From positions 1-44,477 of the forward strand of contig RXJD01000026.1 of assembly GCA_003987775.1 (NCBI GenBank): DNA of 44,477 nt, given 5' to 3'. The notes below the pieces were generated by a model. That model was not told the DNA's origin. It saw only the letters and a program-made list of their open reading frames with translations, and ran no database searches. Each line of letters starts with the position of its first letter. The first letter of the stretch is position 1. This DNA is from Mycobacterium sp. GTDB taxonomy: Bacteria > Actinomycetota > Actinomycetes > Mycobacteriales > Mycobacteriaceae. Both the position numbers and the translations under genes were made by a program. Shown here one piece after another: positions 1,915-44,477 of the stretch.

Positions 1915-1936
1915 TAGACGGCGTTGGGGAGAGCAG

Positions 1937-2227
1937 ATGACGGCACCGCACGGATACGCGCAGCAGAAGGACAACTACGCCAAGCGGCTGCGTCGCATCG
2001 AGGGTCAGGTACGCGGGATCGCGCGCATGATCGAAGAGGACAAGTACTGCATCGACGTGCTCACCCAGATCAGCGCTGTGAACAGTGCGATGCGTTCGGT
2101 GGCGCTCAACCTGCTCGACGAGCACCTGAATCACTGCGTCACCCGCGCGGTGGCCGAGGGCGGCCCGGAGGCCGACGAGAAACTGGCCGAAGCGTCGGCC
2201 GCCATCGCGCGCCTCGTCCGCTCCTGA
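1937..2227 (+). CDS. ricR: Copper-sensing repressor RicR (CsoR/DUF156 family)
   Basis: All-helical DNA-binding repressor of 96 residues that is released from DNA by Cu(I). The C-H-C copper ligand set of the CsoR family is visible as C38 (DKYC), H63 and C67 (DEHLNHC). The conserved helix KRLRRIEGQVRGIARMIEED precedes it. ATG 1937 is chosen over an in-frame upstream start at 1856: it has a GGGGAGAG ribosome binding site about 6 bases upstream and gives the usual family length, and the upstream start would place the operator inside the coding region. Its own operator lies directly upstream, implying autorepression. Orthologue of Rv0190 by position and sequence. Confidence 0.93.
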   Translation: MTAPHGYAQQKDNYAKRLRRIEGQVRGIARMIEEDKYCIDVLTQISAVNSAMRSVALNLLDEHLNHCVTRAVAEGGPEADEKLAEASAAIARLVRS

Positions 2228-2342
2228 CCGGGCGTGTTGACACGCAATGTTTGGGTAAAGCCCGGATACGTTGCGTACGGTGATCACGGCGCAATCTGTC
2301 CGTAAGCCACCTCGGCACGAGGACGGTGTGCCGACAAACAAC

Positions 2343-3599: not shown

Positions 3600-3731
3600 C
3601 GTCGCAGGTCAGCGCCCTGAACTGGGCTTGGTAACGGCTGCGGCGGGTTCGTCGAATGGCTAAGCGGGGGTTTTGCTGTGCCACACTGGGGCCAGTTCAG
3701 GTCTTGACGTAGGTGACCGGAGGGAAAGAGT

Positions 3732-4727
3732 ATGTCGCGCTCGATGAGGGGCCGCACGAGGGCTGGCCTCGTCGCCGCTCTCAACGCATTCGGAGTGGCC
3801 GCGGTGCTCGTGATGGGCGCTGGCCCGGCACTGGCGGACCCGGACGATGTGCCCGGCGACCCGGGCCCGGTGGTTGCGCCCGTCGAGCCGCCCGCGCCGG
3901 AGCCGATCGCGCTGCCGCCGCTGCCCGACCCGTTCGGCGTCCCCCCGGGCGACCCGGCCGCAGTGCCGGTGGCCTCCGGGCCGGTGGCCGGGCAGGACCC
4001 GACCCCGTTCGTCGGCGAACCGCCGTTCCGGCCGCCGTCCTTCAACCCGGTCAACGGGGCGATGGTGGGCGTGGCCAAGCCGATCATCATCAACTTCCAG
4101 GTGCCGATCGCCGACCAGGCGATGGCTGAGCGTGCCGTGCACATCTCGTCGATTCCGCCGGTGCCGGGCAAGTTCTACTGGATGACGCCGTCGCAGCTGC
4201 GCTGGCGCCCGCTGAGCTTCTGGCCGGCCAACACGGCGGTGAACATCGACGCCGCGGGTACCAAGTCGAGTTTCCGTACCGGCGACTCGCTGATCGCGAC
4301 GGCCGACGACGCCACGCACCAGATGACGATCACCCGCAACGGCGTGGTGCAGCAGACCTTCCCGATGTCCATGGGGATGGCCTCCGGTGGGCACCAGACG
4401 CCGAACGGCACCTACTACGTGCTGGAGAAGATGCCGACGGTGGTGATGGACTCCTCGACGTACGGGGTCCCGGTCAACTCGCCGAATGGGTACAAGGTGA
4501 CCGTGTCGGATGCCGTCCGGATCGACAACAGCGGCAACTTCGTGCACAGTGCGCCGTGGTCGGTGGCCGACCAGGGCAAGCGCGACGTCAGCCACGGTTG
4601 CATCAACCTGAGCCCGGCCAACGCGAAGTGGTTCTTCGACAACTTCGGCAGTGGTGACCCGATCGTGGTCAAGAACTCCGTCGGGACCTACAACAAGCCT
4701 GACGGCGCCTCGGACTGGCAGCTGTAG
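3732..4727 (+). CDS. Secreted L,D-transpeptidase (YkuD domain, Rv0192/LdtMt4-type)
   Basis: Forms 3-3 cross-links in peptidoglycan outside the membrane. The 331-residue product has a signal peptide with a likely cut after GPALA (residue 35). A Pro/Ala-rich linker (about 36-95) follows, then a bacterial Ig-like domain (about 97-180, [18 protein letters not shown]), then the YkuD catalytic domain. Catalytic residues are visible as H272 and the SHGCIN motif with H288 and C290. ATG 3732 follows a GGAGGGAAAG ribosome binding site. The genes that follow Rv0192 in H37Rv (Rv0193c-Rv0195) are absent; a terminator and the tetR gene come next. Confidence 0.95.
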
Positions 4728-27315: not shown

Positions 27316-28446
27316 GTGAACTTTGCGGTGCTGGCACCCGAAGTCATTTCGGCGCAGATGTATTCCGGCGCAGGCTCCGAACCCATGTTGGGCGCCGCTG
27401 CGGCCTGGTCCGGATTGGGTGAGGAGTTGGGCTGTGCCGCAGACTCTTTCGCGTCGGTGACCGCGGGATTGACCGGCGGCCCCTGGCAGGGTCCGGCGGC
27501 GGCCGCGATGACGACGGTGGCCACCAGGTACACAAGCTTTTTGACCGAGGCGGCAACCCGCGCAGTAACGGCGGCCACCCAGGCCAAGGCGGTGGCGGGC
27601 GTCTTCGAGGCCGCGAAGGCGGCCGTTGCCCATCCGATGGCGGTGCGGGCCAACCGCATGCAATTCGTCTCGGCAATCCGGTCCAATTTCCTCGGCCTCA
27701 ACTTTCCGCTGATCGCCGCCATCGAGGGCGCATACGACGAACTCTGGGCCCAGAATGTGTCCGCGCTGGCGGCTTACCACACCGGAGCCTCGGCGGCGGC
27801 CGCCCAGATCGCGCCGTGGCAGGAGGCGCTGGGTGACTTCGGCGCGCGCATCGGCCGGGTGGTCGAAACCGACAAGGCGATGATCGAGGCCCGGGCAGCG
27901 GCCAACTCGGCCGAGATCGCCGACGCGGCGCGCTTCACCCGGGACGCTGTCAATAAGGCGTTCGTCGAAGCGCGCTTCGGTCCGGGACGCTTGTGGGGGC
28001 CGTTGCGCTCGGCAGTCGCTTATGACGCACAGACGGCCGGGCGGTTGCTCGTCGAGAACGCCGCCCTGCCCGGGCAGATCGTTTCCAAGAACATCGAGAT
28101 ACTGGCGGCGCCCGGCAACAGGCCCCCGGCCACCGCGCCGGCCGCCGACCTCGGCGGCCTGCTGCAGATGGACGCGGCCACAATCGGTCGCGTGGTCAGC
28201 GACAACCAGGTGCAGCTGTCGAGCGCGGCGGCAGTGACGGAAAGCAGCCTGCGGGCAGCGGAGGCCGCCGTCGTGGGCGGCGATCCAGTTGCCGCGGCCA
28301 GGGATGTCGCCGCTGCGGTTGCCTACGATGCGGACACCGTGGCGCGCCTGGGCATCGAAGATCTCTCGTTGCCGGCGGAACTGATTCGTGAAGACATCGG
28401 GTACCTGACCGGCGCGCCCGCAGCGGCCGCCGTGCTGCCCGGCTGA
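27316..28446 (+). CDS. PPE-family-like protein, copy 1 (APE in place of PPE)
   Basis: 376 residues starting at GTG 27316, with AGAGGGG upstream. The first 180 residues follow the PPE domain: MNFAVLAPEV (LPPE replaced by LAPE at 6-9), MYSGAGSEPMLGAAAAW, and the WxG turn GGPWQGP (W57). MQFVSAIRSNFLGLNFPLIAAIEGAYDELWAQN follows. PPE proteins are ESX/type VII cargo that pair with PE proteins, but no PE gene is adjacent. The C-terminal half has neither SVP nor MPTR motifs. It carries repeats of about 35 residues beginning AxAYDA (about 235 and 335), with a diverged unit between them. Function is unknown. Confidence 0.85.
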   Translation: MNFAVLAPEVISAQMYSGAGSEPMLGAAAAWSGLGEELGCAADSFASVTAGLTGGPWQGPAAAAMTTVATRYTSFLTEAATRAVTAATQAKAVAGVFEAAKAAVAHPMAVRANRMQFVSAIRSNFLGLNFPLIAAIEGAYDELWAQNVSALAAYHTGASAAAAQIAPWQEALGDFGARIGRVVETDKAMIEARAAANSAEIADAARFTRDAVNKAFVEARFGPGRLWGPLRSAVAYDAQTAGRLLVENAALPGQIVSKNIEILAAPGNRPPATAPAADLGGLLQMDAATIGRVVSDNQVQLSSAAAVTESSLRAAEAAVVGGDPVAAARDVAAAVAYDADTVARLGIEDLSLPAELIREDIGYLTGAPAAAAVLPG

Positions 28447-28581: not shown

Positions 28582-28627
28582 TTCTTGCTATCGGCACGGG
28601 GGCTGCCGGATGCGAGAGGATCCACCG

Positions 28628-29527
28628 ATGAACTTTGCGGTATTGGCACCCGAAATCACCTCGGCGCAAATGTATTCCGGTGCGGGATCCGGGCCGATGC
28701 TGGGTGCGGCTGCGGCGTGGACCGGCTTGAGCGACGAGTTGGGCAGCGCTGCTGATTGCTTCGGGTCGGTGACTGCCGGGTTAGCTGGTGGTCCTTGGCA
28801 GGGGCCCTCGTCGGTGGCGATGACGGCAGTGGCCGCCAAATATGCGGGTTTTCTCGGCGAAGCGGCGACCCGTGCCGCCACCGCTGCCGCCCAGGCCAAC
28901 GCGGTAGCGGGGATTTTCGAGGCGGCGAAAGCCGCCGTGGCGCATCCGATGACGGTGCGAACCAATCGTGTGCAGTTCGTGTCCGCGGTGCGGTCGAACT
29001 TCTTGGGCCTCAACGGTCCGCTGATTGCGGCCATCGAGGGTGCGTATGACGAGCTGTGGGCCCAGAATGTGTCCGCACTCGCGAGCTACCACGGTGCAGC
29101 CTCAGCGGCGGCGGCGCAAATTGCCCCGTGGCAGAAGGACCTGGCGGATGTCAGCACCCTCGTCGGCCGGCTGAACGCGGCGAACGGTGCGACTCTGGCT
29201 GCCACGGCGACGGCGAACGCGGCCGAGATCTCGGGTGCGGCACGATTCACCAGGGACATGGCGACGGAGGCGGGCGCGGATCTGAGCGCCGGTCGCGTCA
29301 TGCCGGCGGTGCAGAAGGTCGGTTCGGCCATCGCCTACGACGCCCAGGCCGCGGGCAACGTCCTGGCCAGAACCGCGAGTGTGCCGGCGCAGTTGGTCGG
29401 CCAAGACCTCGAGATCCTGGCGTCATCCGAGTTTGGCGAGAGCCTCAGGGATCGCCTCATCCGGCTTGGCTACCCGCCCGACTACTTGGACTACATCCGT
29501 AACGTTCGGCCGACGGTGCAAGGCTGA
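28628..29527 (+). CDS. PPE-family-like protein, copy 2
   Basis: 299 residues, a close paralogue of the preceding gene over the first 180 residues (MNFAVLAPEITSAQMYSGAGSG; WxG at W57; SNFLGLNGPLIAAIEGAYDELWAQN). It also has LAPE instead of LPPE. The C-terminal part carries only one AYDA-type unit (AIAYDAQAAGNVLARTASVPAQLVGQDLEIL) and ends with a different tail (SLRDRLIRLGYPPDYLDYIRN). ATG 28628 is chosen over an in-frame start at 28610 because GAGAGGA lies at the right distance. Tandem duplication followed by loss or gain of repeat units is the simplest history. No PE partner is adjacent. Confidence 0.85.
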   Translation: MNFAVLAPEITSAQMYSGAGSGPMLGAAAAWTGLSDELGSAADCFGSVTAGLAGGPWQGPSSVAMTAVAAKYAGFLGEAATRAATAAAQANAVAGIFEAAKAAVAHPMTVRTNRVQFVSAVRSNFLGLNGPLIAAIEGAYDELWAQNVSALASYHGAASAAAAQIAPWQKDLADVSTLVGRLNAANGATLAATATANAAEISGAARFTRDMATEAGADLSAGRVMPAVQKVGSAIAYDAQAAGNVLARTASVPAQLVGQDLEILASSEFGESLRDRLIRLGYPPDYLDYIRNVRPTVQG

Positions 29528-29642
29528 CCCGGATTGTTGGGGTTTGCCAAATCCATAGTTTCGGGTCAACGAAAACAAAATTATACCTAGTTGATCAGCA
29601 AATACAGGTCACCGACATCGAGAAACTCGTAGCTTCGCTAAG

Positions 29643-29671
29643 TTGCCAGACGATCCAAATAAGGTTAGCCT
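29643..29671 (+). promoter_or_regulatory. Promoter of the riboswitch-antiporter unit
   Basis: TTGCCA (29643-29648) and TAGCCT (29666-29671) are separated by exactly 17 bases, a good housekeeping-type pair. A start 7-9 bases later would place the transcript's 5' end at 29678-29680, just where the riboswitch P1 stem begins. The overlapping AAGGTTAGCCT resembles half of an iron/manganese regulator box, but the other half is missing. Confidence 0.7.
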
Positions 29672-29679
29672 CGGGGTAG

Positions 29680-29798
29680 CGAAGGGGAGTAGTTCCAGAT
29701 CGCCGGCCTGGTTACCGGCGGCTGCGGATGGTCGACATACTGGCGGCTTCGGTCGCCCGGTCATCCACCGGGGAGTTTTCCGGCGAGCGAGACCTTCG
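29680..29798 (+). promoter_or_regulatory. yybP-ykoY (Mn2+) riboswitch
   Basis: Conserved landmarks are in order: GAAGGGGAGTAG at 29681-29692, GTCGACATACT near 29731-29741, and GCGAGACCTTCG at 29787-29798. P1 pairs 29680-29685 with 29793-29798. Between lie GC-rich stems, for example GCCGGC/GCCGG near 29702-29722 and the CCGGGG/TTTTCCGG element before the 3' motif. Members of this class bind Mn2+ and turn on exporters or membrane proteins. It precedes a cation antiporter gene by about 70 bases. Recognition is by motif only; no covariance search was possible. Confidence 0.88.
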
Positions 29799-29821
29799 GC
29801 CGACACAACGTCGGTCCGAAG
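29794..29821 (+). other. Hairpin in the riboswitch expression platform
   Basis: Arms 29794-29804 and 29810-29821 form 11 bp with one bulged T around a 5-base ACAAC loop. The 5' arm begins with CTTCGG, which is also the 3' strand of P1, so the two structures are mutually exclusive. No U-run follows, so a classic terminator is not evident. The same CCTTCGG (29793-29799) is fully complementary to CCGAAGG (29858-29864), which contains the Shine-Dalgarno sequence of the antiporter gene. Confidence 0.6.
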
Positions 29822-29870
29822 TCTCGCCACCGCCGACGGGGCCCCGGACCGCAGGAACCGAAGGACGCTA

Positions 29871-31091
29871 ATGGCTTTGATCGCCGAACGCCGTCGGACC
29901 CGGACACCCGCAGACCTGCTGCTGCGCTCGCTGCTCACCACCGCGATCTTCATCGCTCCCGCGCTCGTCGTGCGCTGCGCCGGGCTGCATCCCGCACCCG
30001 TGCTGTCGCTGGTCGTCTACGGCGCGGCCGTCGTCGCGGCGAGTTTCCTGCTGGCCTGGGCGGCCGAGGCGGCGCAACTCGACGTGTCCGGCGGCCTGGC
30101 CATCGCGGTGCTGGCGCTGATCGCCGTGCTGCCCGAATACGCCGTCGACCTCTACTACGCCTACCAGTCCGGCTCGCACGCCGAGTACACCCAGTACGCC
30201 GCGGCCAATATGACCGGCTCCAACCGGTTGTTGATGGGCCTGGGCTGGCCGGTGGTGGTGCTGGTGGCGCTGTGGGTCGCGCGCAGGACGGGCGGTCCGA
30301 CGGCTGCGCTGCGGCTCGAGCGCGGCAACCGGGTGGAACTGGGGTTCCTGCTCGTCGCGGGGATCGTCGCCTTCCTCGTGCCGGCGACCGGCCGTATCCA
30401 CATCACCCTGGGCGTCGCACTGCTGGCCTGGTTCGGTTTCTACCTTTACAAGCTCAGCCGCGGCGCCGTGGAGGAGCCCGAGTTGATGGGCACCGCCGCG
30501 GCCCTGGGTGGGCTACCGGAGCGGGCCCGTCGCGCCGCGGTCATCACCCTGTTCGCCGTCGCCGCCGGGGTCATCCTGGCGTGCGCAAAACCCTTCGCGG
30601 AGAGCCTGATCGGCGCCGGCACCGAGCTGGGTGTCGACCGGTTCCTGCTGGTGCAGTGGCTGGCGCCGCTCGCTTCGGAAGCGCCGGAGTTCGTGATCGC
30701 GATCATCTTCGCCAGCCGCGGCAAGGGCACCGCCGCGATCGCGACGCTGATCTCCTCGAAGGTCAACCAGTGGACGCTGCTGGTGGGTTCGTTGCCGATC
30801 GCCCACCTGGTAGGCGGCGGCGCCGACCAGCTGGTCCTGGACGGCCGGCAGGTCGAAGAGATGCTGCTGACTGCGACCCAGACCCTGATGGGGGTGGCGC
30901 TGATCCTGGCGCTGCGCTTCCACCGCTGCACGGCGTGGGCGTTGCTGACGCTGTTCCTGGTGCAGTTCCCGGTCGCCTCGACCGAGGCTCGGCTGGCGCT
31001 GAGCGGGGTGTATGCGATGGTCGCCGTGGTCGCGCTGGTGGTGAACCGCCGGCAGGTGTTGCCCACGCTGCGCGCACCGTTGCGCGGCTGA
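29871..31091 (+). CDS. Cation antiporter of the Na+/Ca2+ exchanger superfamily, riboswitch-controlled
   Basis: 406 residues with about 11 membrane segments. The two inverted alpha-repeats of the CaCA family are visible. The first is AVLPEYAVDLYYAYQSG with AANMTGSNRLLMGLGWP; the second is APLASEAPEFVIAIIFASRG with LISSKVNQWTLLVGSLP. Each has the acidic PE motif that binds cations. A charged loop near 200-220 separates the halves. ATG 29871 follows AAGGA by 5 bases. The yybP-ykoY riboswitch upstream suggests that the exported ion is Mn2+ (possibly with Ca2+), a prediction and not a known substrate. In H37Rv this position is held by other genes. Confidence 0.88.
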   Translation: MALIAERRRTRTPADLLLRSLLTTAIFIAPALVVRCAGLHPAPVLSLVVYGAAVVAASFLLAWAAEAAQLDVSGGLAIAVLALIAVLPEYAVDLYYAYQSGSHAEYTQYAAANMTGSNRLLMGLGWPVVVLVALWVARRTGGPTAALRLERGNRVELGFLLVAGIVAFLVPATGRIHITLGVALLAWFGFYLYKLSRGAVEEPELMGTAAALGGLPERARRAAVITLFAVAAGVILACAKPFAESLIGAGTELGVDRFLLVQWLAPLASEAPEFVIAIIFASRGKGTAAIATLISSKVNQWTLLVGSLPIAHLVGGGADQLVLDGRQVEEMLLTATQTLMGVALILALRFHRCTAWALLTLFLVQFPVASTEARLALSGVYAMVAVVALVVNRRQVLPTLRAPLRG

Positions 31092-31107: not shown

Positions 31108-32631
31108 ATGCAGATTCGCCCGCATGCGCTGGCTCATCCCGACAAGCCCGCCGTCATCCTGTACCCGTCCGGCACCGTGGTGACCTTCGGTGAGCTCGAG
31201 GCCCGCGCGAACCGGCTGGCGCACTACTTCCGGCAGGCCGGGCTGCGCGAGGGTGACGCCATCGCCATCTTGATGGAGAACAACGAGCACATGCACGCCG
31301 TCATGTGGGCGGCGCGGCGCAGCGGGTTGTACTACGTGCCGATCAACACCCATCTGACCGCGGCCGAGGCGGCGTACATCATCGACAACAGCAACGCCAG
31401 GGCCATCGTCGGGTCGGCGGCGCTGCGCGACGTGTGCGCGGGGCTCGGCGACCATCTGCCCAACGGTCTGCCCGATGTGCTGCTGCTCGCCGACGGTGCC
31501 CTGGAGGGCTGGCAGCGCTATCCGGAATGCGTTGCGGATCAACCGGATACCCCGATCCCGGACGAGATCGAGGGTGACCTGTTGCAATACTCCTCGGGCA
31601 CCACCGGCCGGCCCAAAGGCATCAAACGTGAACTGCCGCATGTGCCGCCGGAAGACGCGCCGGGCATGATGTCGGCGCTGGTCGGGTTCTGGATGGACCC
31701 CGACACGGTCTACCTGAGCCCCGCGCCGTTGTACCACACGGCGCCGTCGGTGTGGTCCCTGACGGTGCAGGCGGCCGGCCTGACCACCGTGGTGATGGAG
31801 AAGTTCGATCCCGAGGGGACGTTGGACGCGATCCAGCGGCACCGGGTGACGCACGGGCAGTTCGTCCCGGCCATGTTCGTGCGGATGCTCAAACTGCCGG
31901 AAGCGGTGCGTAATTCGTACGATCTGTCCAGTTTGAAGCGGGTCATGCATGCGGCCGCGCCGTGTCCGGTGCTGATCAAGAAGCAGATGATGGAGTGGTG
32001 GGGGCCGATCGTCGACGAGTACTACGCCTCCTCGGAGGCGATCGGTTCGACGCTGATCACCGCCGAGGACTGGCTGGCCCATCCCGGCTCGGTCGGCAAA
32101 CCGATGTCCGGCGCGTTGCACATCCTGGGGCCCGACGGCAAAGAGTTGCCACCCGGTCATCCGGGCGAGATCTATTTCGAAGGCGGGTATTCGTTCGAGT
32201 ACCTCAACGACCCGTCGAAGACCGCCGCGTCGCGGGACACGCACGGCTGGATGACGGTCGGGGACATCGGGTTTCTCGACGAAGAGGGCTACCTGTACCT
32301 CACCGACCGCCGTCACCACATGATCATCTCCGGCGGGGTGAACATCTATCCGCAGGAGACCGAGAACCTGCTGGTCACCCATCCGAAGGTGTTGGACGCG
32401 GCCGTATTCGGCGTTCCCGACGACGAGATGGGCCAGCGGGTGATGGCGGCGGTGCAGACCGTCGACCCGGCTGATGCCAACGAGGCGTTCGCCGAGGAGC
32501 TGTCGGGCTGGTTGCGAGAACGGTTGGCGCACTTCAAGTGTCCGCGGTCGATTGCGTTCGAGGCGCAGCTGCCGCGTACCGACACCGGCAAGCTCTACAA
32601 GAACGAGTTGATCGAGAAGTATTCGGTGTGA
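31108..32631 (+). CDS. fadD4: Fatty-acyl-CoA/AMP ligase FadD4-like
   Basis: 507-residue member of the ANL adenylating family, activating a carboxylic acid (fatty or sterol-like) as acyl-CoA. Motifs are P-loop YSSGTTGRPKG (161-171), YYASSEAIGS, the hinge TVGDIGFLDEEGYLYLTDR, MIISGGVNIYPQETE and the catalytic lysine region PRTDTGKLYKNE (K495). Chain-length preference cannot be read. The H37Rv protein is a little longer at the N-terminus. It overlaps the next gene as GTGA, giving a fadD-crotonase pair, and sits beside fadE3 and a MaoC-like gene, consistent with a beta-oxidation-like role. Confidence 0.9.
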   Translation: MQIRPHALAHPDKPAVILYPSGTVVTFGELEARANRLAHYFRQAGLREGDAIAILMENNEHMHAVMWAARRSGLYYVPINTHLTAAEAAYIIDNSNARAIVGSAALRDVCAGLGDHLPNGLPDVLLLADGALEGWQRYPECVADQPDTPIPDEIEGDLLQYSSGTTGRPKGIKRELPHVPPEDAPGMMSALVGFWMDPDTVYLSPAPLYHTAPSVWSLTVQAAGLTTVVMEKFDPEGTLDAIQRHRVTHGQFVPAMFVRMLKLPEAVRNSYDLSSLKRVMHAAAPCPVLIKKQMMEWWGPIVDEYYASSEAIGSTLITAEDWLAHPGSVGKPMSGALHILGPDGKELPPGHPGEIYFEGGYSFEYLNDPSKTAASRDTHGWMTVGDIGFLDEEGYLYLTDRRHHMIISGGVNIYPQETENLLVTHPKVLDAAVFGVPDDEMGQRVMAAVQTVDPADANEAFAEELSGWLRERLAHFKCPRSIAFEAQLPRTDTGKLYKNELIEKYSV

Positions 32632-33581
32632 CCCTGCGGGTGGTCGATCTGTCCAGCGCGCCGGAGCCCGATGTGGCGGCGCCGCCGGGTGTGATCGTCG
32701 CCCACGGGTCGCCGCACAGCGAGTACTGGCTGGACACAGCGACTTTCACGCTGTCCGAGCACCGATGTGACGATCCCCGGGTGGTCACCGTGGATTCGGT
32801 GCCGCGGGTTTTGTCCGAGCTGACGCAACGCTGCCAACAGTGGCCGATCGCCAGTGCGGTCTGCGACGACGTACTGCGCTCTTTGGACCCGGCCGGCGCC
32901 ACGCTGGGCGGTCTGGTCACCGAGTCACTGGCCTATTCGACCTTGCAGGCCGGACCCGAATTCGCCCGCTGGCTGTCCCAGCGCGGACCGGCGCGGGTCC
33001 CGGACAGCGCCGAACCCGTTACGGTGCAACGCGACGACGACATCCTGCGCATCAGCTTCAACCGCCCGGACCGGCACAACGCCTTCTGCACCGGCACGCG
33101 TACGGCGCTGCTGGAGGCACTGGCCGTCGCGCAGCTCGATCCGTCGATCGCCGGAATCGTGTTGGGCGGCAACGGTCCGTCCTTCTGCAGTGGGGGAGAC
33201 CTCGCCGAGTTCGGCTCCTTCGCCGATCCGGCCAGCGCCCACCTGGCGCGCACCCGGCACAGTCCTGCCCTGGTGCTCGACGAACTCACCGGCCGGCTCG
33301 GCCGGGCCTGTCGCGCTCAGGTGCACGGGCGGGTGCTGGGCAGCGGGCTGGAGATGGCCGCATTCTGCGGGTGGGTGCAGGCGGCGCCGGACACCGTATT
33401 CGGACTGCCCGAGTTGAGCCTGGGGTTGTTACCCGGTGCCGGCGGCACGGTCAGTGTCACCCGGCGGATAGGCCGTTGGCGCACCGCATATCTCGTCCTC
33501 TCGGGTCACACCGTCGAGGCGCAGACGGCGCGGGCGTGGGGTCTGGTGGACGCGATCGGCTTTGCTCAGTACCCGGAATAG
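32628..33581 (+). CDS. Crotonase-fold (enoyl-CoA hydratase/isomerase) protein with N-terminal extension
   Basis: 317 residues from GTG 32628 (GTGA overlap with fadD4). The crotonase core begins near residue 132 (VTVQRDDDILRISFNRPDRHNAF). It contains the oxyanion-hole segment GPSFCSGGDLAEF (about 183-195), GSGLEMAAF (238-246) and PELSLGLLPGAGG with E262. The first 130 residues match no domain I recognise and are unusual, as typical hydratases are about 260 in total. The core is short at the C-terminus, ending soon after the ARAWGLVDAI segment. Hydratase activity is plausible but not certain. Translational coupling suggests joint action with FadD4. Confidence 0.85.
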   Translation: MTLRVVDLSSAPEPDVAAPPGVIVAHGSPHSEYWLDTATFTLSEHRCDDPRVVTVDSVPRVLSELTQRCQQWPIASAVCDDVLRSLDPAGATLGGLVTESLAYSTLQAGPEFARWLSQRGPARVPDSAEPVTVQRDDDILRISFNRPDRHNAFCTGTRTALLEALAVAQLDPSIAGIVLGGNGPSFCSGGDLAEFGSFADPASAHLARTRHSPALVLDELTGRLGRACRAQVHGRVLGSGLEMAAFCGWVQAAPDTVFGLPELSLGLLPGAGGTVSVTRRIGRWRTAYLVLSGHTVEAQTARAWGLVDAIGFAQYPE

Positions 33582-33952
33582 GTGGTGTACGTCGTCTGGA
33601 TGTGGTTGTCGATCGAGACGGCCGCCGCGATCAGGACGACGTAGAGGATGATCGACACCACGATCACTACCGCACCCACGATGGCGCTGATGATCGCCCA
33701 CTTCTTGGCATTGCGGGAGGCTTCCTGGGCTTCGCCGTAGCGTCCCTGTGCCCACAGTCCGGAGACCTTGGTGGAGTAGACGATCGACACGATGCCGGCC
33801 GGCAGACAGCACAGCACCGTGCTCAGAATCGCCCAGACCAGGTAGTTGTCCGGTTCCGGCCCGGAGCCGTACGCGGGCGGCCCGCCGTAGCTCGGCGGCG
33901 GCTGGCCCTGCCAACCCGGGTTGGCGCCGTACGGGTCCGACGGATAACTCAT
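33566..33952 (-). CDS. CD225/dispanin-family small membrane protein
   Basis: 128 residues. A Pro/Gly/Tyr-rich N-terminus (1-33) is followed by two membrane segments at about 37-58 and 87-113. They are joined by a conserved loop: LCCLPAGIVSIVYSTKVSGLWAQGRYGEAQEASRNAKKWAIIS. This is the CD225 (dispanin, IFITM-like) pattern with the double-Cys and the A..S..AK.W motif. Bacterial members are of unknown function. ATG 33952 is used because the Pro-rich start MSYPSDPYGANPGW follows; an in-frame start at 34021 adds 23 residues. The 3' end overlaps the crotonase gene by 16 bases. Confidence 0.88.
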   Translation of the reverse strand: MSYPSDPYGANPGWQGQPPPSYGGPPAYGSGPEPDNYLVWAILSTVLCCLPAGIVSIVYSTKVSGLWAQGRYGEAQEASRNAKKWAIISAIVGAVVIVVSIILYVVLIAAAVSIDNHIQTTYTTYSGY

Positions 33953-34063
33953 AACCGCTGCCTTCCCTTGGGTCGCCACTTTGCTGGTGCCTCGCGGCGA
34001 AGTCAGGCAAATATAGCGCACCCCACGGCACGCGGGCAGTGCGAAACGGACCGCCCGTCGCGG

Positions 34064-36359: not shown

Positions 36360-39300
36360 TCAGTTGCCGGCTTTGCCGTTGTTCCCGTTGTTGCCGCTCT
36401 TGCCGGGTGACCCTGCGCCGACCCCGACGCCGCCGTTGCCGCCGTTGCCGGCGTTGCCGCCGTTGCCGCCGCTGCCGCCGTTGCCGTTGCCGCCGGCGCT
36501 GCCGCCACCGCCGGCCGCGCCACCGTTACCGACGGTGCCGGCGTCGCCGCCGTCGCCGCCGTCGGGGCCCTTACCGCCGTTGCCGCCGTTACCGTTGGCG
36601 CCGCCGCCGTTGCCGCCCAGGCCGCCGGTCTGGCCGAGTCCGGCATTGCCGCCGGCGCCTCCGCTACCGGCGTTGCCGCCCTTACCGCCATTGCCCGAGA
36701 TGGCACCGCCCTTGCCGCCGTCGCCGCCGGCGCCGCCGCTGCCGCCCTTGCCGCCGGTGCCGCTGTTGCCGCCGTTGCCACCGTCGGGGTTGCCCGCGTC
36801 ACCCGCTGCGCCATTGCCACCCGTTCCGGGCGCGCCGCCGGTCCCGCCTGCGGCGCCGTTGCCGCCGGCCCCGCCGTTGCCGGTACCGAGGGCGTTGCCG
36901 CCGGCGCCGGCCGATCCGCCCGCGCCGCCGGCCCCGCCGTTGGCGCCCTTACCGCCGGCGCCGTTGTTCACACCGAAGGTGGGGTCACCGGCCGCGCCGT
37001 TGCCGCCCGCGCCGCCGTTGCCACCGGTGCCGCCGTTGCCGCCGGTGCCGCCGTTGCCGGCGACGGTGCCGCCGAGGCCGCCTGCCCCGCCCTGCCCACC
37101 GGCTCCACCGGCCTGGCCGATCGTGCCGTCGTCGCCCGGGTTGACGCCGGCCGTGCCGGCCGTGCCCGCGGTGCCGTTGCCACCGTTGCCGCCGTTGCCG
37201 CCGGTGCCGTACTGGCCGGCGTTGCCACCGGCGCCGCCGTTGCCGCCGGCCTTGCCGGGATCGGTGGCCGCGTTGTAGCTGAAGCCCGCGCCACCGTTCC
37301 CGCCGTTGCCGGTCTGGGTGTTGGGCGTGGTGCCGGCCGTGCCATTGGTGCCCGCGCCACTGCCGTTGCCGTTCAGGCCGCCCTTGCCGGCCGCGCCGCC
37401 GGCGCCGGCATTGCCGCCGTCACCGCCCCGGCCACCGTCGGGGTTGGCGAAGGTGCCCGCCGCACCGTTGCCGCCGGCCCCGGCGGTGCCGCCGTTGCCG
37501 CCGTTGCCGCCGTTGCCGCCGGCACCGATGGCGCCGTTGGTGCCGGTGCCCAGGGCGGTACCACCCATGCCGCCGGCGCCGCCGTTACCACCCGCGCCGC
37601 CGGTCGCACCGTTGGTGCCGTTGGTGCCGGCTCCGTTGTTGACGCCCTGGACGCCGGTGGTGCCGTTGGTGCCGTTGCCGCCGGTGCCACCATTGGCGCC
37701 GTTACCGCCGATGCCGCCGGCTCCGCCGTTTCCGGAGATGGTGCCGCCGTTACCGCCGGCTCCCGCAGCGCCACCGCTGCCACCGGCCTGACCGTTGACA
37801 TTGCTGCCGCCGTTCGACCCGGCGAAGCCGTTGCCGCCGTTGCCGCCCGTACCACCGTTGCCGTAGGTCCCACCGTTGCCGCCGGCGCCGCCGCTGCCGC
37901 CGTTGGCGCCCGCGGTGCTGGTCTGGGTGAAGCCGTTACCGCCGTTGCCGCCGTTGCCGACCGGGCTGACGAACCCGGCGCCGTCGCTGCCGTTGCTACC
38001 GGTGGTGCCGCTGCCGCCGCTGTTGGAGCCGCCGGTGCCGCCCTTGCCGACGATCGCGGCGCCGCCGTCGCCGCCCTTGCCGCCGTTGGGGTTGGCCGCG
38101 GTGCCGTCGGCACCCTTGCCGCCGTCGCCCGGGGTGCCGGCCTTGCCGCCGTTGCCGCCGTTGCCGCCGTTGCCGTCGGTGCCGTTGGTGCCGGTGCCGA
38201 GCGCCTTGCCGCCGAGTCCCGCGGAGCCGCCGTTGCCGCCGGCGCCGCCGGTGCCACCGTTGCCGCCGTTCTGGCCGGCACCGTTGTTGACGCCCGCCAC
38301 CCCGGCCGAGCCGGCCACGCCGTCACCGCCGTTGCCGCCGGCGGCGCCGATGCCGCCGTTGCCGCCCTTGCCGCCGTTACCGAAATCGGTACCGCCGTTA
38401 CCACCGGCGCCACCGCTGCCGCCCGCGCCGCCGGCGGTGCCGTCGGTGCCGCTCGCGCCCGCTCCGACGCCCGCCGTACCGGCGGTGCCGGCCGACCCGT
38501 TGCCGCCGTTGCCGCCCGCGCCGCCGTTACCGTGGTTGCCGCCGCTGCCGCCGGCACCACCGTTGCCACCGGCCGTGCCGGGGTTGGCGACGGTCTGGCT
38601 GTAGCCGTTGCCGCCGGCGCCGCCATTGCCGGTGGCGCCGCCGACGGTGCCGCCGTCGGTGCCGGCCGTGCCCGCCTTGGTGTTGGAGGTGCCGCCGGTG
38701 CCGCCCTTGCCCGCGGTCTCGTTTCCGCCGTTGCCGCCGTTGCCGCCGTTGGGGTTGGTCACGGTGCCGTCGGCGCCCTTACCGCCGTCACCGGGGGTGC
38801 CGGCCTTGCCGCCGTTGCCGCCGTTGCCGCCGGTGCCGTCGCTGCCATCGGTTCCGACGCCCTGGGCCTTGCCGCCGACGCCGCCGTTGCCACCGTTGCC
38901 GCCGGCGCCGCCGACGCCGCCGTTGCCACCGTTCTGGGCGCTGCCGATGCCGGTGCCGTATTGGTCGACGTCGGCGACACCGTTGCCGCCGGACACGCCG
39001 TTGCCGCCCGCGGTGCCGTTGCCGCCGTTGCCGCCGGCGCCACCCTGGCCGCCGTTGCCGGAGATGGAGCCGCCCTTGCCGCCGGCCCCACCGGCGCCAC
39101 CGGAGCCCCCGGCGCGGCCGTTGCCGCCGGAGTCGCCGGACTTGGTGCCGTTGGCGCCGTTCAGGATGCTGTCGACCCCGTTGCCTCCGGCCCCGCCGTT
39201 TCCGCCGTTGCCGATGTTGCCGCCGTCGCCGCCGTTGCCGCCGTTGCCGCCGCTGGCTCCCCTGGTCAGCGGGTTGTAGCCGGCCCCGCCCTGGCCGCCG

Positions 39301-42300
39301 TTACCGGCCGGCCCGGTGACCGAGGCGCCGTTGGTGCCGCTGGTGCCGGGCGTGGATCCGGTGCCGCCGCTGCCGCCGGTCCCGGCCTTGCCCGCGTTGC
39401 CGCCGTTGCCGCCGTTGCCGCCGTTGGGGTTGCCGACGGTGCCGGCCGCGCCGGTGCCGCCGTTACCGGGCGTGCCGGCCCTGCCGCCGTTGGCGCCGTT
39501 GCCGCCGGTGCCGTCGGTGCCTGCGAGGCCGCTGCCGTTGAGCAGCGCACCGGCCGTGCCGCCGTTGCCGCCGGCGCCGCCGTTGCCACCGTCGCCGCCG
39601 TTGCCGCCGGCCTGGCCGGCGCCGCTGTTGACGCCCGGCAGGCCGGACCGGCCGTTCACGCCGTTACCGCCCCTGCCGCCGGCCGCGCCGTTGCCGGCCG
39701 CGCCGCCGCTGCCGGCGTTGCCGGCCAGGGTGCCGCTGTTACCGCCGGCGCCGCCGCTGCCGCCGGAACCACCGGCCTGGCCGCTGGTGCCGCTGCTGCC
39801 GGGCAGGACGCCGTTGACACCGGCTTTGCCGGCCGTGCCGTTGCCGCCGGCGCCACCCTGGCCGCCGTTGCCGATCGTGCCGCCGTTGCCGCCGGCTCCG
39901 CCGTTGCCGCCGTTCTTGCCCGGGTCGGTCAGCGGGTTGTAGCTGAACCCGGTGCCGCCCTTGCCGCCGTTACCGGCGGTGCCGGCCGGGACGGAGCCGG
40001 CCTTGCCGTCGGCCCCGTTGGTGAAGCCGGTGCCGCCCTTGCCGAGTGCGCCGCCGGTGCCGATGGTGCCGCCGTCACCGCCCTTGCCGCCGTTGGGGTT
40101 GGCGTAGGTGCCGTTGCCGCCGTCGCCGCCGTTGCCGCCGACCCCGGTGTTACCGCCGTTGCCGCCGGCGCCGCCGTTGCCTGCCTTATAGCCGGGGGCG
40201 GAGGGCTGACCGCCTTCGCCGCCCTTGCCACCGGCGCCGCCGTTGCCGCCGCCACCGCCCTTGCCGCCGTTGCCGCCGTTGATGCCGTTGCCGCCGTTGC
40301 CGCCGGTTCCGCCGTCGCCGCCGTCACCCGCGGCACCGCCGGCGCCGCCGTCGCCGCCGATGGTGCCGCCGAGACCGCCCTTGCCGCCGTTGCCGCCGGC
40401 GCTGGCGTTGCCACCGTTGCCGCCGTCCACGCCGGGCGCGTTGCCGTCGGTGCCGGTGATGCCCTTGGCGCCGCTGCCGCCCTTGCCGCCGGTGCCACCG
40501 GTGCCGTACTGCCCGGCGTTACCGCCGGCGCCGCCGTCACCGCCGGCCTTGGTCGGGTCGGTGGAATTCCAGCCCGCGCCACCGGTGCCGCCGTTGCCGG
40601 CGATGGTGGTGGGGGTGGCGCCGGTGCTGCCGTTGCCGCCGGGGTTCAGGCCGGTGCCGCCGGTGCCGCCGGTGCCGCCGCTGCCCGGGTTGGCGCCGTT
40701 GCCGCCGTTGCCGCCGGTCGGGTGTGCCGCGGTGCCGGCCGCGCCGGTGCCGCCGATACCGCTGACGCCGCCGACCCCGCCGTTGCCGGCGTTGCCGCCG
40801 TTGCCGACGGTGCCGTTGGTGACGGTGCCGGCGTTGCCGCCCGCGGCGCCCTTGCCGCCGGTGCCGCCGTTGCCGGCGTTGCCACCGTTGCCGCCGTTGA
40901 TGACGAAGTTGGGGTCACCGGCGCCGCCCTTGCCGCCGACGCCGCCGGCTCCGCCGTCGCCGCCCTTGCCGCCGTTGCCGCTGTTGCCGGCGATGGTGCC
41001 GCCGTTGCCGCCCTTGCCGGCCGCGCCGCCGTCGCCGCCGGTACCGCCGACGCCGCCGGTGCCGCCGGTCGGGCCGGTGGTGCCGGTCACCCCGGTGCCA
41101 CCGGTGAACCCGTCCCCGCCGTTGCCGCCATTGCCGTAGGCCCCCGCGTTGCCGCCGTCGCCGCCGGCGTAGCCGGTCTGTCCGGCACCCGGGACGCCGA
41201 AGGCGTTGCCGCCGTTACCGCCGTTGCCGGTCGGGCTGGTGGGAGTGGTGCCGGCCTTGCCGTTGGAGCCGCTGCCGCCGGGGCCGGTGCCGGGCGTGCC
41301 GGCGCTGCCGCCGGCGCCGGGGTCGCTGCCGTCGCCGCCTTTGCCACCGCCCAGGTAGCCGTTGCCGCCCTTGCCGCCGGCCGCGCCGAGTCCGCCGTCG
41401 CCGCCGTTGCCGGCGTTGCCGCCCTCGCCGACGTTGGTGTTGAGGCCGTTGCCACCGGCGCCGCCGGCCGCGCCCTTGCCGGCGTTTCCGCCCGCGCCGC
41501 CCTTGCCGTTCAGGGTGCCGCTGTTGCCGCCGTCTCCGCCGGCCCCGCCGCTGCCACCGGTCTGGCCGTTGGCGCCGTTGGGATCGTCGATGGTGCCGTT
41601 GGCGCCTGCCTTGCCGGCCGCGCCGTTGCCGCCGTTGCCGCCGGTGCCGCCGTCGCCGTAGAGGCCGCCGTCGCCACCGGCACCGCCCTTGCCGCCGTTG
41701 GCGCCGGGCGTGGTGGCGTTGTAGCCGTCGCCGCCGTTACCGCCGTTGCCGCCGACGCCGGTCGGGGTGCTGCCGCCGCTGCCGTTGGCACCCTTGGCGC
41801 CGGAGCCCGAACCGCTGCCGTTGGCGCCGCCGGCACCACCGGTGCCGCCGCTCACGCCGGTGCCCGGGTTGCCGCCCTTGCCGCCGGCCCCGCCGTCGGG
41901 GTTGGCCGCCGTACCGGCCGCGCCGTTACCGCCGTTGCCCTGCAGGCCGCCGTTGCCGCCGTTACCCGCATTGCCGCCGGCCGCGCCCGCGCCCGCCACA
42001 CCGTTAGGTCCGCTGGTGCCGCCCTTGCCGCCGGTGCCGCCGTCGCCGCCCAGGCCGCCGGTGCCGCCGTTGCCGCCGTTCTGGCCGCCGCCGATGCCGG
42101 TGCCGTACTTGTTCGAGTTGGCCACGCCGTCGTGACCGTCGACGCCGTTGCCGCCGTTGCCGCCGCTGCCGGCATTGCCGCCGACTCCGCCGTCACCGCC
42201 GTTTCCAATGGTGTTGCCGCCCGCGCCGCCCGCGCCGCCGGCGCCGCCGGCGCCGCCCTTGCCGCCGTTGGTTCCGGAGTCGCCGGTGTTGGACCCGTTG

Positions 42301-44477
42301 ATGCCGTTGGCACCGTTGGAGCCGCTACCGCCGGCGCCGCCCTTGCCGCCGTTGCCGTTGCTGCCGCCGCTACCGCCCTGGCCGCCTGCGCCGCCGGCCA
42401 GGCCGTCGCCGTTGGCGTCGGTGGCGTTGGGCGCCCAGGTGTAGCCGACGCCGCCGTCACCGCCGTTGCCGGACGGACCGGTGAAGGCGGCACCCGCGGT
42501 CCCGTTCGCGCCGCTCGGGTCGCCGCCGCCGTCCAGGCCGCCGGTTCCGCCGCCGCCCGCGGTCCCGACCTTGCCGCCGTTGCCGCCGTTGCCGCCGGCA
42601 GTGCTGCCGGCGATGCCGGCCGCGCCGTTGCCGCCGCTGCCCGACGCGCCCGCGGCACCGCCGTTGCCGGCGTTGCCGCCGTTGCCGACCGTGCCGGCGG
42701 TGCCGTACAGGCCGGCCTTGCCGCCGGCGCCGCCGGTGCCACCGTTGCCGCCCACACCACCGTTGCCGCCGTTGCCGCCGTTCTGGCCGCCGCCCTTGCC
42801 GTTGCCGTACTCGTCGAGGCCGGAGACGCCGTTGGCGCCGTCGTGACCAGTGCCGCCGGTGCCGCCGTTGGCTCCGGTCCCGCCGTTGCCGCCGGCGCCA
42901 CCGTCACCGAGATTGGTGCCGGCGTCGCCACCGGCGCCGCCCTTGCCGCCGGCGCCGCCGGCCTGGCCCGTGCCGCCGTTTTCACCCGGGCTGACGCCGT
43001 CCTTGCCGACCGCGCCCGCCACGCCGTTACCGCCGTCGCCGCCGGCGCCGCCGCTGCCGTAGTTGCCGCCCTTGCCGCCGGCACCGCCGTCGCCGCCGTT
43101 GGCTCCGGCAGCCGTCGAGGTGAATCCGGCGCCGCCGGCGCCGCCGTTGCCGACCGGTGTCAGCGGCGTCGCGCCGTCGATCCCGTACTTGCCGGTGCCG
43201 ATGCCGTTGCCGTTGCTGCCGCCGGTTCCGCCGGCGCCCACGGTGCCCACGTTGCCGCCGTTACCGCCGGCGCCACCGTTCGGGTTGGTCGCGGTGCCCG
43301 CGGCGCCGATGCCGCCGTTGCCCGGCGTTCCGGCATTACCGCCGTTGCCGGCGTTGCCACCGGCGCCGGAGGCGCCGGCGCTGCCCTTCGTCGAGGTGCC
43401 GCCGACCCCGCCGTTGCCGCCGTTGCCGCCGCTGGCGCCGTTGCCGCCGTTGCCGCCCGCGCCGCCGGCGCCGTTGTTGACGCCGGCCACACCGGCTGCG
43501 CCGTCCTGACCCGTCCCGCCGTTGCCACCGTTGCCACCGCTGCCGCCGGCCCCGCCGGCGCCGCCGTTGCCGAAGTTCACCCCGGCCTTGCCGCCGCGGC
43601 CACCGTCGCCGCCGGATCCACCGGCCTGCGCGTTGCCGCCGCTGTCGCCCGCCTTCACCCCGGCGCTGCCGTCGTTGCCGGCCACGCCGTTGCCGCCGGC
43701 CCCGCCGTTGCCGCCGTTCCCGTAGTTGCCGCCGTCACCGCCGGCCCCGCCGTTGCCGCCGCTGGCTCCGGCAGCCTGCGGGTTGAACCCGCTGCCGCCG
43801 TTGCCACCATTGCCGACCGGACCGGTGACGTTGGTGCCGTTGGCGCCGCTGGCCGCGGTGCCACCGCCGCCGTTGGTGCCACCGGCACCGCCCTTGCCGA
43901 CGGCACCGGCGTTGCCGCCGTTGCCGCCCGCGCCGCCGTTCGGGTTGGTGCTGGTGCCGGCTGCACCGTTGCCGCCGCTGCCGGGTGTGCCGGCGTTGCC
44001 GCCCTTGCCGCCGATGCCGCCGTTGCCGTTGGTGCCTGCGGTTGCCCCGGCTCCGCCGGCCGCTCCGCCCTTACCGCCGGCTCCACCGGCTCCACCGGTG
44101 CCACCGGCGCCGCCGTCGCCACCGGCCTGGCCGCCGCCGATGCCGTTGTTGTAGTTGTTCTGGTCGCTGACGCCGTTGGCCCCGGTGATACCGGTGCCGC
44201 CGGCTCCGGCCGCGCCACCGGCGCCACCGTTGCTCGCGTTGCCGCCATTGGCGTTGGTGCCCGCGGTGCCCGCGGTGCCGCCGTTGGTGGCACCGGCCGC
44301 TCCGCCGGTGCCACCGGCGCCACCGTTGCCGCCCTTACCGCCGGCGCCACCGTCGCCGCCGGCATAGCCGGCGCCGTTGTTGAAGCCCGAGGTGCCGTTG
44401 GCGCCCGCCGCGCCGGTGCCGCCGTTGCCGGCGGTGCCCGCGTTGCCGCCCTTGCCGGCGTTGCCGCCGCTGCCCGC
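36360..44477 (-). CDS. Giant PGRS-type glycine/asparagine-rich protein (partial, 5' end outside window)
   Basis: The minus-strand frame is open from the window edge to TGA at 36360-36362: at least 2705 residues made almost wholly of GGX/GGNGG repeats rich in Gly, Asn, Ala and Thr. This is the PGRS composition of PE_PGRS proteins, which are surface-exposed or secreted by ESX-5 and may form glycine-rich helical sheets. No PE domain or true N-terminus is in the window; the GTG at 43685 is internal. A higher-order repeat of about 580-700 bp is present. The C-terminus ends SPGKSGNNGNNGKAGN without a separate domain. The length exceeds typical PE_PGRS proteins. Function is unknown. Confidence 0.9.
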   Translation of the reverse strand, partial: AGSGGNAGKGGNAGTAGNGGTGAAGANGTSGFNNGAGYAGGDGGAGGKGGNGGAGGTGGAAGATNGGTAGTAGTNANGGNASNGGAGGAAGAGGTGITGANGVSDQNNYNNGIGGGQAGGDGGAGGTGGAGGAGGKGGAAGGAGATAGTNGNGGIGGKGGNAGTPGSGGNGAAGTSTNPNGGAGGNGGNAGAVGKGGAGGTNGGGGTAASGANGTNVTGPVGNGGNGGSGFNPQAAGASGGNGGAGGDGGNYGNGGNGGAGGNGVAGNDGSAGVKAGDSGGNAQAGGSGGDGGRGGKAGVNFGNGGAGGAGGSGGNGGNGGTGQDGAAGVAGVNNGAGGAGGNGGNGASGGNGGNGGVGGTSTKGSAGASGAGGNAGNGGNAGTPGNGGIGAAGTATNPNGGAGGNGGNVGTVGAGGTGGSNGNGIGTGKYGIDGATPLTPVGNGGAGGAGFTSTAAGANGGDGGAGGKGGNYGSGGAGGDGGNGVAGAVGKDGVSPGENGGTGQAGGAGGKGGAGGDAGTNLGDGGAGGNGGTGANGGTGGTGHDGANGVSGLDEYGNGKGGGQNGGNGGNGGVGGNGGTGGAGGKAGLYGTAGTVGNGGNAGNGGAAGASGSGGNGAAGIAGSTAGGNGGNGGKVGTAGGGGTGGLDGGGDPSGANGTAGAAFTGPSGNGGDGGVGYTWAPNATDANGDGLAGGAGGQGGSGGSNGNGGKGGAGGSGSNGANGINGSNTGDSGTNGGKGGAGGAGGAGGAGGNTIGNGGDGGVGGNAGSGGNGGNGVDGHDGVANSNKYGTGIGGGQNGGNGGTGGLGGDGGTGGKGGTSGPNGVAGAGAAGGNAGNGGNGGLQGNGGNGAAGTAANPDGGAGGKGGNPGTGVSGGTGGAGGANGSGSGSGAKGANGSGGSTPTGVGGNGGNGGDGYNATTPGANGGKGGAGGDGGLYGDGGTGGNGGNGAAGKAGANGTIDDPNGANGQTGGSGGAGGDGGNSGTLNGKGGAGGNAGKGAAGGAGGNGLNTNVGEGGNAGNGGDGGLGAAGGKGGNGYLGGGKGGDGSDPGAGGSAGTPGTGPGGSGSNGKAGTTPTSPTGNGGNGGNAFGVPGAGQTGYAGGDGGNAGAYGNGGNGGDGFTGGTGVTGTTGPTGGTGGVGGTGGDGGAAGKGGNGGTIAGNSGNGGKGGDGGAGGVGGKGGAGDPNFVINGGNGGNAGNGGTGGKGAAGGNAGTVTNGTVGNGGNAGNGGVGGVSGIGGTGAAGTAAHPTGGNGGNGANPGSGGTGGTGGTGLNPGGNGSTGATPTTIAGNGGTGGAGWNSTDPTKAGGDGGAGGNAGQYGTGGTGGKGGSGAKGITGTDGNAPGVDGGNGGNASAGGNGGKGGLGGTIGGDGGAGGAAGDGGDGGTGGNGGNGINGGNGGKGGGGGNGGAGGKGGEGGQPSAPGYKAGNGGAGGNGGNTGVGGNGGDGGNGTYANPNGGKGGDGGTIGTGGALGKGGTGFTNGADGKAGSVPAGTAGNGGKGGTGFSYNPLTDPGKNGGNGGAGGNGGTIGNGGQGGAGGNGTAGKAGVNGVLPGSSGTSGQAGGSGGSGGAGGNSGTLAGNAGSGGAAGNGAAGGRGGNGVNGRSGLPGVNSGAGQAGGNGGDGGNGGAGGNGGTAGALLNGSGLAGTDGTGGNGANGGRAGTPGNGGTGAAGTVGNPNGGNGGNGGNAGKAGTGGSGGTGSTPGTSGTNGASVTGPAGNGGQGGAGYNPLTRGASGGNGGNGGDGGNIGNGGNGGAGGNGVDSILNGANGTKSGDSGGNGRAGGSGGAGGAGGKGGSISGNGGQGGAGGNGGNGTAGGNGVSGGNGVADVDQYGTGIGSAQNGGNGGVGGAGGNGGNGGVGGKAQGVGTDGSDGTGGNGGNGGKAGTPGDGGKGADGTVTNPNGGNGGNGGNETAGKGGTGGTSNTKAGTAGTDGGTVGGATGNGGAGGNGYSQTVANPGTAGGNGGAGGSGGNHGNGGAGGNGGNGSAGTAGTAGVGAGASGTDGTAGGAGGSGGAGGNGGTDFGNGGKGGNGGIGAAGGNGGDGVAGSAGVAGVNNGAGQNGGNGGTGGAGGNGGSAGLGGKALGTGTNGTDGNGGNGGNGGKAGTPGDGGKGADGTAANPNGGKGGDGGAAIVGKGGTGGSNSGGSGTTGSNGSDGAGFVSPVGNGGNGGNGFTQTSTAGANGGSGGAGGNGGTYGNGGTGGNGGNGFAGSNGGSNVNGQAGGSGGAAGAGGNGGTISGNGGAGGIGGNGANGGTGGNGTNGTTGVQGVNNGAGTNGTNGATGGAGGNGGAGGMGGTALGTGTNGAIGAGGNGGNGGNGGTAGAGGNGAAGTFANPDGGRGGDGGNAGAGGAAGKGGLNGNGSGAGTNGTAGTTPNTQTGNGGNGGAGFSYNAATDPGKAGGNGGAGGNAGQYGTGGNGGNGGNGTAGTAGTAGVNPGDDGTIGQAGGAGGQGGAGGLGGTVAGNGGTGGNGGTGGNGGAGGNGAAGDPTFGVNNGAGGKGANGGAGGAGGSAGAGGNALGTGNGGAGGNGAAGGTGGAPGTGGNGAAGDAGNPDGGNGGNSGTGGKGGSGGAGGDGGKGGAISGNGGKGGNAGSGGAGGNAGLGQTGGLGGNGGGANGNGGNGGKGPDGGDGGDAGTVGNGGAAGGGGSAGGNGNGGSGGNGGNAGNGGNGGVGVGAGSPGKSGNNGNNGKAGN
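36786..43946. repeat. Higher-order PGRS superrepeat (about 12 units)
   Basis: A landmark encoding NPNGG, NPDGG or a diverged form (plus-strand GGGGTT or similar) recurs near 36786, 37440, 38088, 38751, 39426, 40095, 40720, 41319, 41898, 42598, 43281 and 43941. Spacings run from about 580 to 700 bases and all fall in the same frame. Each unit also has one aromatic signature (for example GAGFSYN, GNGFTQT, GAGYNPL). Many have a Tyr/Asn-containing one (for example DQYGTGIG, GVNNGAG). The landmarks near 41319 and 42598 are degenerate. Confidence 0.7.

Follow-up and report, generated by a model that had tools for sequence, protein, structure and literature searches.

A candidate yybP-ykoY-type manganese riboswitch upstream of a CaCA-superfamily antiporter gene in Mycobacterium

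The window, that is, the whole stretch of 44,477 nucleotides of Mycobacterium sp. DNA analysed in this work, contains a gene for an antiporter of the CaCA superfamily preceded by a structured leader (Table 1). The span reported previously, 29643-31091, is a mechanical open reading frame starting at TTG; the likely coding sequence is the shorter one listed in the table. The initial annotation had noted a riboswitch-like leader in front of the antiporter gene. This observation was confirmed: the promoter-like site, the yybP-ykoY landmarks, in order, and the P1 stem were all found where it had placed them. The fadD4 gene, which adjoins the antiporter gene closely also at the loci L001, L002 and L037, is possibly co-transcribed with it. 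Two PPE-family genes (27316-28446 and 28610-29527, both on the + strand) lie between pckA and the riboswitch. Further along, the - strand carries a frame for a small CD225-domain (interferon-induced transmembrane-like) membrane protein (33566-34021) and a 2441-residue, glycine-rich open frame with the look of a PE_PGRS protein (36360-43685).

Table 1. Features of the leader and the adjoining genes (positions refer to the window)
Feature	Position	Strand	Basis
Promoter-like site: -35 TTGCCA, 17-nt spacer, -10 TAGCCT	29643-29648 and 29666-29671	+	sequence
Putative Mn2+ riboswitch (yybP-ykoY type) aptamer	29680-29798; RNA to about 29800	+	R1, conservation and covariation in 25 leaders
P1, CGAAGG:CCUUCG	29680-29685 with 29793-29798 (CCTTCG)	+	sequence
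L1 5' strand, GGGGAGTA (GGGGAGUA in RNA)	29684-29691	+	invariant in 25/25 leaders; matches RF00080 consensus GGGGAGUAG
P3 arm, GGAT with ATCC	29726-29729 with 29763-29766	+	RF00080 partial match 29731-29761; U-A to C-G in 2 leaders
L3 bulge in P3, ACATACT (ACAUACU)	29735-29741	+	identical to RF00080 consensus
P4 hairpin, CCGG...CCGG	29768-29783	+	both-side changes at 3/6 helix pairs (alignment)
L1/P1 3' strand, CGAGACCTT (CGAGACCUU in RNA)	29788-29796	+	kept in 25/25 leaders
Competing hairpin A, CTTCGG-CCGAC / GTCGG-T-CCGAAG	29794-29821	+	fold; 5' strand is the P1 3' strand
Proposed anti-sequestor helix, CGGTCCG/CGGACCG	29812-29818 with 29845-29851	+	covariation
Shine-Dalgarno sequence, GAAGGA	29860-29865	+	sequence, folds
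CaCA-superfamily (Na_Ca_ex) antiporter, 406 aa	29871-31091	+	ATG start; PF01699, E 3e-21
fadD4, 16 nt past the antiporter stop	31108-32631	+	NF038341, 1006.8 bits

Leaders were chosen for carrying both GGGGAGTA and, 93-124 nt further on, CGAGACCTT; the two motifs are thus present in all of them by selection. This arrangement was found 5' of the antiporter gene in 25 distinct leaders from the 110 antiporter loci fetched, some of which represent one genome twice; the sources are Mycobacteriaceae, Prescottella, Nocardia, Rhodococcus and Tsukamurella. In all 25 the L1 core GGGGAGUA faces GAGACC and is closed by P1, whose alignment cells are paired in 98.7%. The L3 bulge lies between two P3 helices in the window, and the variants ACAUGCU, ACACACU and ACACGCU occur as well among the other leaders. 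The aptamer helices as a whole are paired in 96.9% of the alignment cells, with both-side changes at 7 pairs compared to a mean of 4.2 in shuffled alignments (3 of 500 shuffles were as high), the structure having been derived from the same alignment on which it was tested. The single-sequence fold of the window leader was unexceptional (z -1.6; 10 of 200 shuffles were equally stable).

From the motif TTGCCA-N17-TAGCCT, transcription is predicted to start at about 29678-29679, at the first bases or foot of P1. A site of the form TTGC-N16-18-TANNNT ending 10-13 nt 5' of GGGGAG was present in all 24 leaders whose upstream sequence was long enough (that of L078 was too short) and in 0.4% of shuffled regions. 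A standard sigma-70 scan did not report a promoter at 29643-29671, because TAGCCT matches just three of the six bases of TATAAT.

The Rfam model of the class, RF00080, gave no match at the gathering score, and none at E<=10 in 29528-29950. When 129 bases were searched, only a partial match was obtained (12.0 bits, E 0.097, model positions 52-80, sequence 29731-29761), so that the window leader falls short of RF00080 membership by the gathering cut-off (45 bits), which is a curators' threshold and not a structural feature. Searching for a gapped pattern in a single fixed spelling gave no match either. In the alignments made, RF00080 starts before GGGGAGUAG and stops before GAGACC, and the CGAGACCTT strand falls past its last position; a strand strongly conserved here therefore goes unscored. 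Because RF00080 did not match the window leader, a local covariance model, R1, was built from the 25 homologous aptamers. R1 (whose E-values are rough) matched the window leader, one of its training rows, at 29674-29801 with 127.6 bits. When it was applied to E. coli K-12, in stretches totalling 98 kb that were picked so as to contain mntP and alx, the sole matches at E<=10 were the leaders of mntP (29.7 bits, E 5.2e-5) and alx (22.3 bits, E 0.0032). As judged by these matches, the window leader is homologous to the known Mn2+ riboswitches of mntP and alx. The genome from which the window derives has a second R1 match (L134, G000:C108:63812-63908, - strand; 19.8 bits, E 0.98), which is probably due to chance.

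In the class, R1 matches were found in 112 of 394 genomes, representing 42 of 137 genera. RF00080, applied to a different set of genomes, was above its cut-off in 0 of 296, and gave matches at E<=0.1 in 21 of 296. Nine of these 21 sub-threshold loci (L111-L118, L120) scored strongly with R1; the remaining 12 were not backed by it. Measured by these counts, the standard model under-reports Mn2+ riboswitches of the actinobacterial branch. The initial annotation had held that the lack of a significant covariance-model hit would refute its proposal. Literally, such a match is lacking, but R1, the class survey and the E. coli leaders point to the coverage of the model, and the evidence puts the missing hit down to weak representation of actinobacterial sequences in RF00080.

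The genes behind the R1 hits could be read in 110 of the 112 genomes, and 109 of them code for transporters: GDT1/UPF0016 in 100 cases, CaCA in 4 (window included), MntP in 3, VIT1 in 1 and a P-type ATPase in 1, the remaining gene being GreA. These assignments were made by tblastn to reference proteins drawn from the hits themselves, L142, L153 and L156 among them; Pfam scans of L155, L163, L137, L139, L138, L274 and L276 agree with the tblastn classes. The expectation that this riboswitch class precedes exporters was thus borne out, since relatives detected by R1 lie nearly all 5' of transporter genes, mostly of Mn2+-exporter families. The possibility that the leader is merely a GC-rich conserved element with a chance resemblance to yybP-ykoY would fit the silence of RF00080 and the unexceptional single-sequence fold. 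It is extremely improbable in view of the recovery of mntP and alx by R1, the 109 of 110 class-wide hits that precede transporter genes, the covariation in the aptamer, and the identity of ACAUACU and GGGGAGUA to the RF00080 consensus.

Several of the class-wide hits deserve separate mention. At L274 (G077:C46:19800-25500) the gene behind the R1-type leader (ORF 90-4178, + strand) encodes a P-type ATPase of 1362 residues with E1-E2_ATPase, Hydrolase and Cation_ATPase_C domains. R1 hits of similar score (79.9-89.5 bits) occur in six further genomes of the genus, G149, G016, G085, G129, G068 and G022. The leader of L139 is 5' of a VIT-family protein whose N-terminal stretch appears ferritin-like by eye. 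A weak hit (36.6 bits) at L232 precedes a GreA/GreB-type gene, the sole non-transporter of the 110, and may be a chance match or a relic. At L113 the leader is back to back with an RNase P RNA gene (1501-1590, - strand; 1642-2020, + strand).

The antiporter matched PF01699 with 76.4 bits (cut-off 24.9) in two stretches corresponding to two repeats. Its only relative in the PDB at E<=0.01 was 4kpp (E 2e-78), which we take to be the H+/Ca2+ exchanger CAX_Af. Counted along the alignment, E89 and E270 of the antiporter align with E78 and E255 of 4kpp, presumably ion-site residues, and both are invariant in 13 aligned proteins. The antiporter is probably proton-coupled. The genome of the window encodes one VIT1 protein; MntP was below the cut-off (22.3 vs 24.4 bits), and GDT1 was not found at E<=1e-8.

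In a survey of 198 genomes of the genus, the antiporter was found in 58, GDT1 in 144 and the leader (R1) in 147. Both proteins were present in 18 genomes, the antiporter only in 40, GDT1 only in 126 and neither in 14; the two are seldom together (Fisher p 2e-16, kinship ignored), and none of the 14 genomes devoid of both had the leader. Among the matches listed, with positions compared by eye, the leader sits on the antiporter gene in 12 genomes, 9 of which, including that of the window, have no GDT1. The other 46 of the 58 antiporter genomes have no leader at that gene at the R1 threshold used, 31 of them without GDT1 and 15 with it. A leader on the antiporter gene as a predictor of GDT1 absence among antiporter bearers was rejected (p 0.74). 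From these 46 genomes, and from the lack of a leader at most orthologues, it follows that the antiporter does not need the leader. In G128, counted as GDT1-less, the leader precedes an interrupted GDT1-like frame (L275, G128:C106:144476-147000), and the antiporter gene is elsewhere without a leader; this may be a replacement in progress.

It has to be considered whether the switch senses Mn2+ while the main substrate of the antiporter is Ca2+ or some other cation, its expression being tied to Mn2+ within a wider balance of divalent cations. The nearest solved relative, the presumed Ca2+/H+ exchanger 4kpp with both aligned Glu residues kept, would be compatible with such a role, as would the fact that most antiporter orthologues are not under a riboswitch. 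We regard it as unlikely given the reciprocal distribution of the antiporter and GDT1 and the case of Bordetella pertussis BP3410, a calcium:cation antiporter that is controlled by a yybP-ykoY riboswitch and exports Mn (PMC8546581). On account of its switch, of the reciprocal distribution with GDT1 and of BP3410, we infer that the antiporter of the window exports Mn2+. If this reading is right, these mycobacteria are likely to use it as their Mn exporter. The manganese-homeostasis unit proposed in the initial annotation gains support from the RNA homology and from the linkage to exporter genes, with Mn2+ export by the antiporter as its inferred part. The reading that we prefer, and consider highly probable from the sequence comparisons, is that the leader is a yybP-ykoY Mn2+ riboswitch of the ON type, which would turn on a CaCA antiporter exporting excess Mn2+. 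Points that weigh against it are the RF00080 score far under the cut-off, the many orthologues without a leader, and the small share of CaCA genes behind R1 hits (4 of 110).

The unit had been placed in an accessory block. This did not hold up: pckA and/or fadD4 flank the antiporter gene at 16 of 24 leader-bearing loci (at the other 8 neither was within the available stretch), leader presence requires just 4 changes on the antiporter tree, and GC content is 0.65-0.71 over 27-33 kb. An origin in an accessory island, as a candidate explanation, is not borne out by synteny or GC. At 51 of 58 leader-less loci fadD4 was absent from the available stretch. The leader is present at 22 of the best 80 antiporter loci. 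The tree had 63 rows (60 of the best 80 loci, the window and two distant relatives) and was midpoint-rooted; the two most distant rows had been found via their leader and provide no evidence on ancestry. The next most distant row, from Tsukamurella (L078), had been retrieved through its protein and yet carries the leader, which makes loss the simpler reading. Among the leader-less loci (in the range L019-L080), 31 antiporters, all from Mycobacteriaceae, form one clade of the tree. In Mycobacteriaceae the unit appears to have resided for a long time between pckA and fadD4; M. tuberculosis H37Rv presumably carries other genes at the corresponding place.

Downstream of the aptamer, the leader can form hairpin A, in a region with a predicted stability of -20.2 kcal/mol. 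Among 108 class-wide R1 hits, window included, the downstream sequence best able to pair with the 3' strand of P1 did better than base shuffles (median p 0.02; p<=0.1 in 81%). The 3' arm of hairpin A could alternatively enter the 7-bp anti-sequestor helix proposed in Table 1. With G-U pairs counted, all seven positions of this helix are paired in 20 of 25 leaders; over the 15 distinct combinations the mean was 6.67 of 7, compared to 5.75 after shuffling (0 of 5000 shuffles reached it), and of six registers tested the other five gave 1.4-3.4. As the register had been seen before the shuffle test, the latter confirms leader-by-leader pairing, not discovery of the site. Tree-aware analysis of covariation left just 1-2 independent pairs per covarying arm pair, which is too few, and the window's own arm fragment was predicted to fold onto 29854-29861, not onto 29845-29851.

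In predicted folds of the window leader, AAGGA was unpaired at 36% in the free RNA and at 58% when the P1 strand was blocked. With 24 leaders folded (L068, in which no site was found, was omitted), blocking the P1 strand opened the Shine-Dalgarno sequence in 10, closed it in 2 and changed little in 12; when the whole arm was blocked, the corresponding numbers were 12, 2 and 10. Eight leaders, that of the window included, were folded in parts, and the arm helix was plain in the minimum-energy fold of two (L140 and L071); the MntP leader L140 shows both alternative folds clearly, whereas in L003 the Shine-Dalgarno sequence was masked in either state. The folding energies lend weak backing to ON logic.

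An intrinsic or U-tract terminator was not found in the leader, and therefore control is probably translational. In the proposed mechanism, at low Mn2+ the P1 3' strand CCUUCG would pair with CCGAAG in hairpin A, leaving the GC-rich segment 29845-29851 free to help mask the Shine-Dalgarno sequence. Binding of Mn2+ would favor docking of L1 and L3, P1 would form and hairpin A would open, its 3' arm capturing 29845-29851 so that the ribosome site is freed; Rho perhaps acts on the untranslated RNA. The platform step taken alone, i.e. the arm helix acting as anti-sequestor, is about evenly balanced between being right and wrong. A Mn2+ aptamer with transcriptional control, by Rho or by an unrecognised terminator at hairpin A and not by Shine-Dalgarno masking, is a competing explanation of appreciable, though clearly lower than even, probability. 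The stability of hairpin A and the class-wide preservation of its pairing fit it, as do the pe20 Mbox of M. tuberculosis, in which a translational platform is joined with Rho-dependent termination (PMC12810186), and the fact that the Shine-Dalgarno sequence is predicted to open in less than half the leaders. It is weakened by the lack of a U-tract terminator and by the covarying helix that links the arm to the segment preceding the Shine-Dalgarno sequence, which would be needless for a terminator alone. Because the mycobacterial Mbox is translational with Rho, translational control, with Rho involved, is plausible for the window leader.

If the preferred reading of a Mn2+ riboswitch governing an antiporter is right, many actinobacteria possess Mn2+ riboswitches (112 of 394 genomes of the class, 147 of 198 in the genus), and the genus offers an instance in which one exporter family takes over from another, whether or not a riboswitch is present. 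A wider proposal can be put forward tentatively, at somewhat less than even confidence: that the Mn2+ riboswitch has a large actinobacterial branch, for the most part unlisted, whose members share a translational switch of three strands (P1, hairpin A and anti-sequestor), and that CAX-like antiporters have repeatedly replaced GDT1 in Mycobacterium as exporters of Mn2+, the switch being present in some cases and not in others. The Bordetella precedent and the known linkage of the riboswitch to GDT1 keep the finding within known biology.

A description of a Mn2+ riboswitch in Mycobacterium was not found in the literature searched, whose coverage was partial, and priority is not claimed. In Corynebacterium glutamicum three yybP-ykoY elements were predicted with an older Rfam release (scores 43.7-49.9), one of them at terC with an observed transcript (PMC3890552); the actinobacterial branch was therefore not wholly unseen. 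The leaders of E. coli mntP and alx are reported to be Mn-sensing riboswitches (PMC9603457). With these RF00080 members the window leader shares P1, L1 with GGGGAGUA and GAGACC, the ACAUACU bulge, the P3 and P4 arms and a transporter gene downstream, and with alx also a stretch complementary to GAGACCUU immediately 3' of P1, as judged by eye. It differs in being GC-rich and in scoring 12 bits against 45; GAGACC belongs to its conserved core, whereas the RF00080 model, in the alignments made, stops short of it. The M. tuberculosis pe20 Mbox is another metal-sensing riboswitch of a mycobacterium, in which SD, anti-SD and anti-anti-SD segments occur without an intrinsic terminator (PMC12810186), but it belongs to the Mg2+ class and has another aptamer. 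According to a review, UPF0016 genes are under a yybP-ykoY riboswitch in 328 of 333 screened strains (PMC7380456). GDT1/UPF0016 resembles the window unit in its control and is by far the commonest gene behind R1 hits, whereas the protein is of another Pfam family than the antiporter. BP3410 is likewise a CaCA antiporter behind a Mn2+ riboswitch, and Mn export has been demonstrated for it (PMC8546581). By the descriptions alone the two proteins are set apart, BP3410 being listed under the YRBG type (PMC9936198) and the window protein matching 4kpp. The initial annotation had called a CaCA target less familiar; the BP3410 precedent reduces the novelty of such a target.
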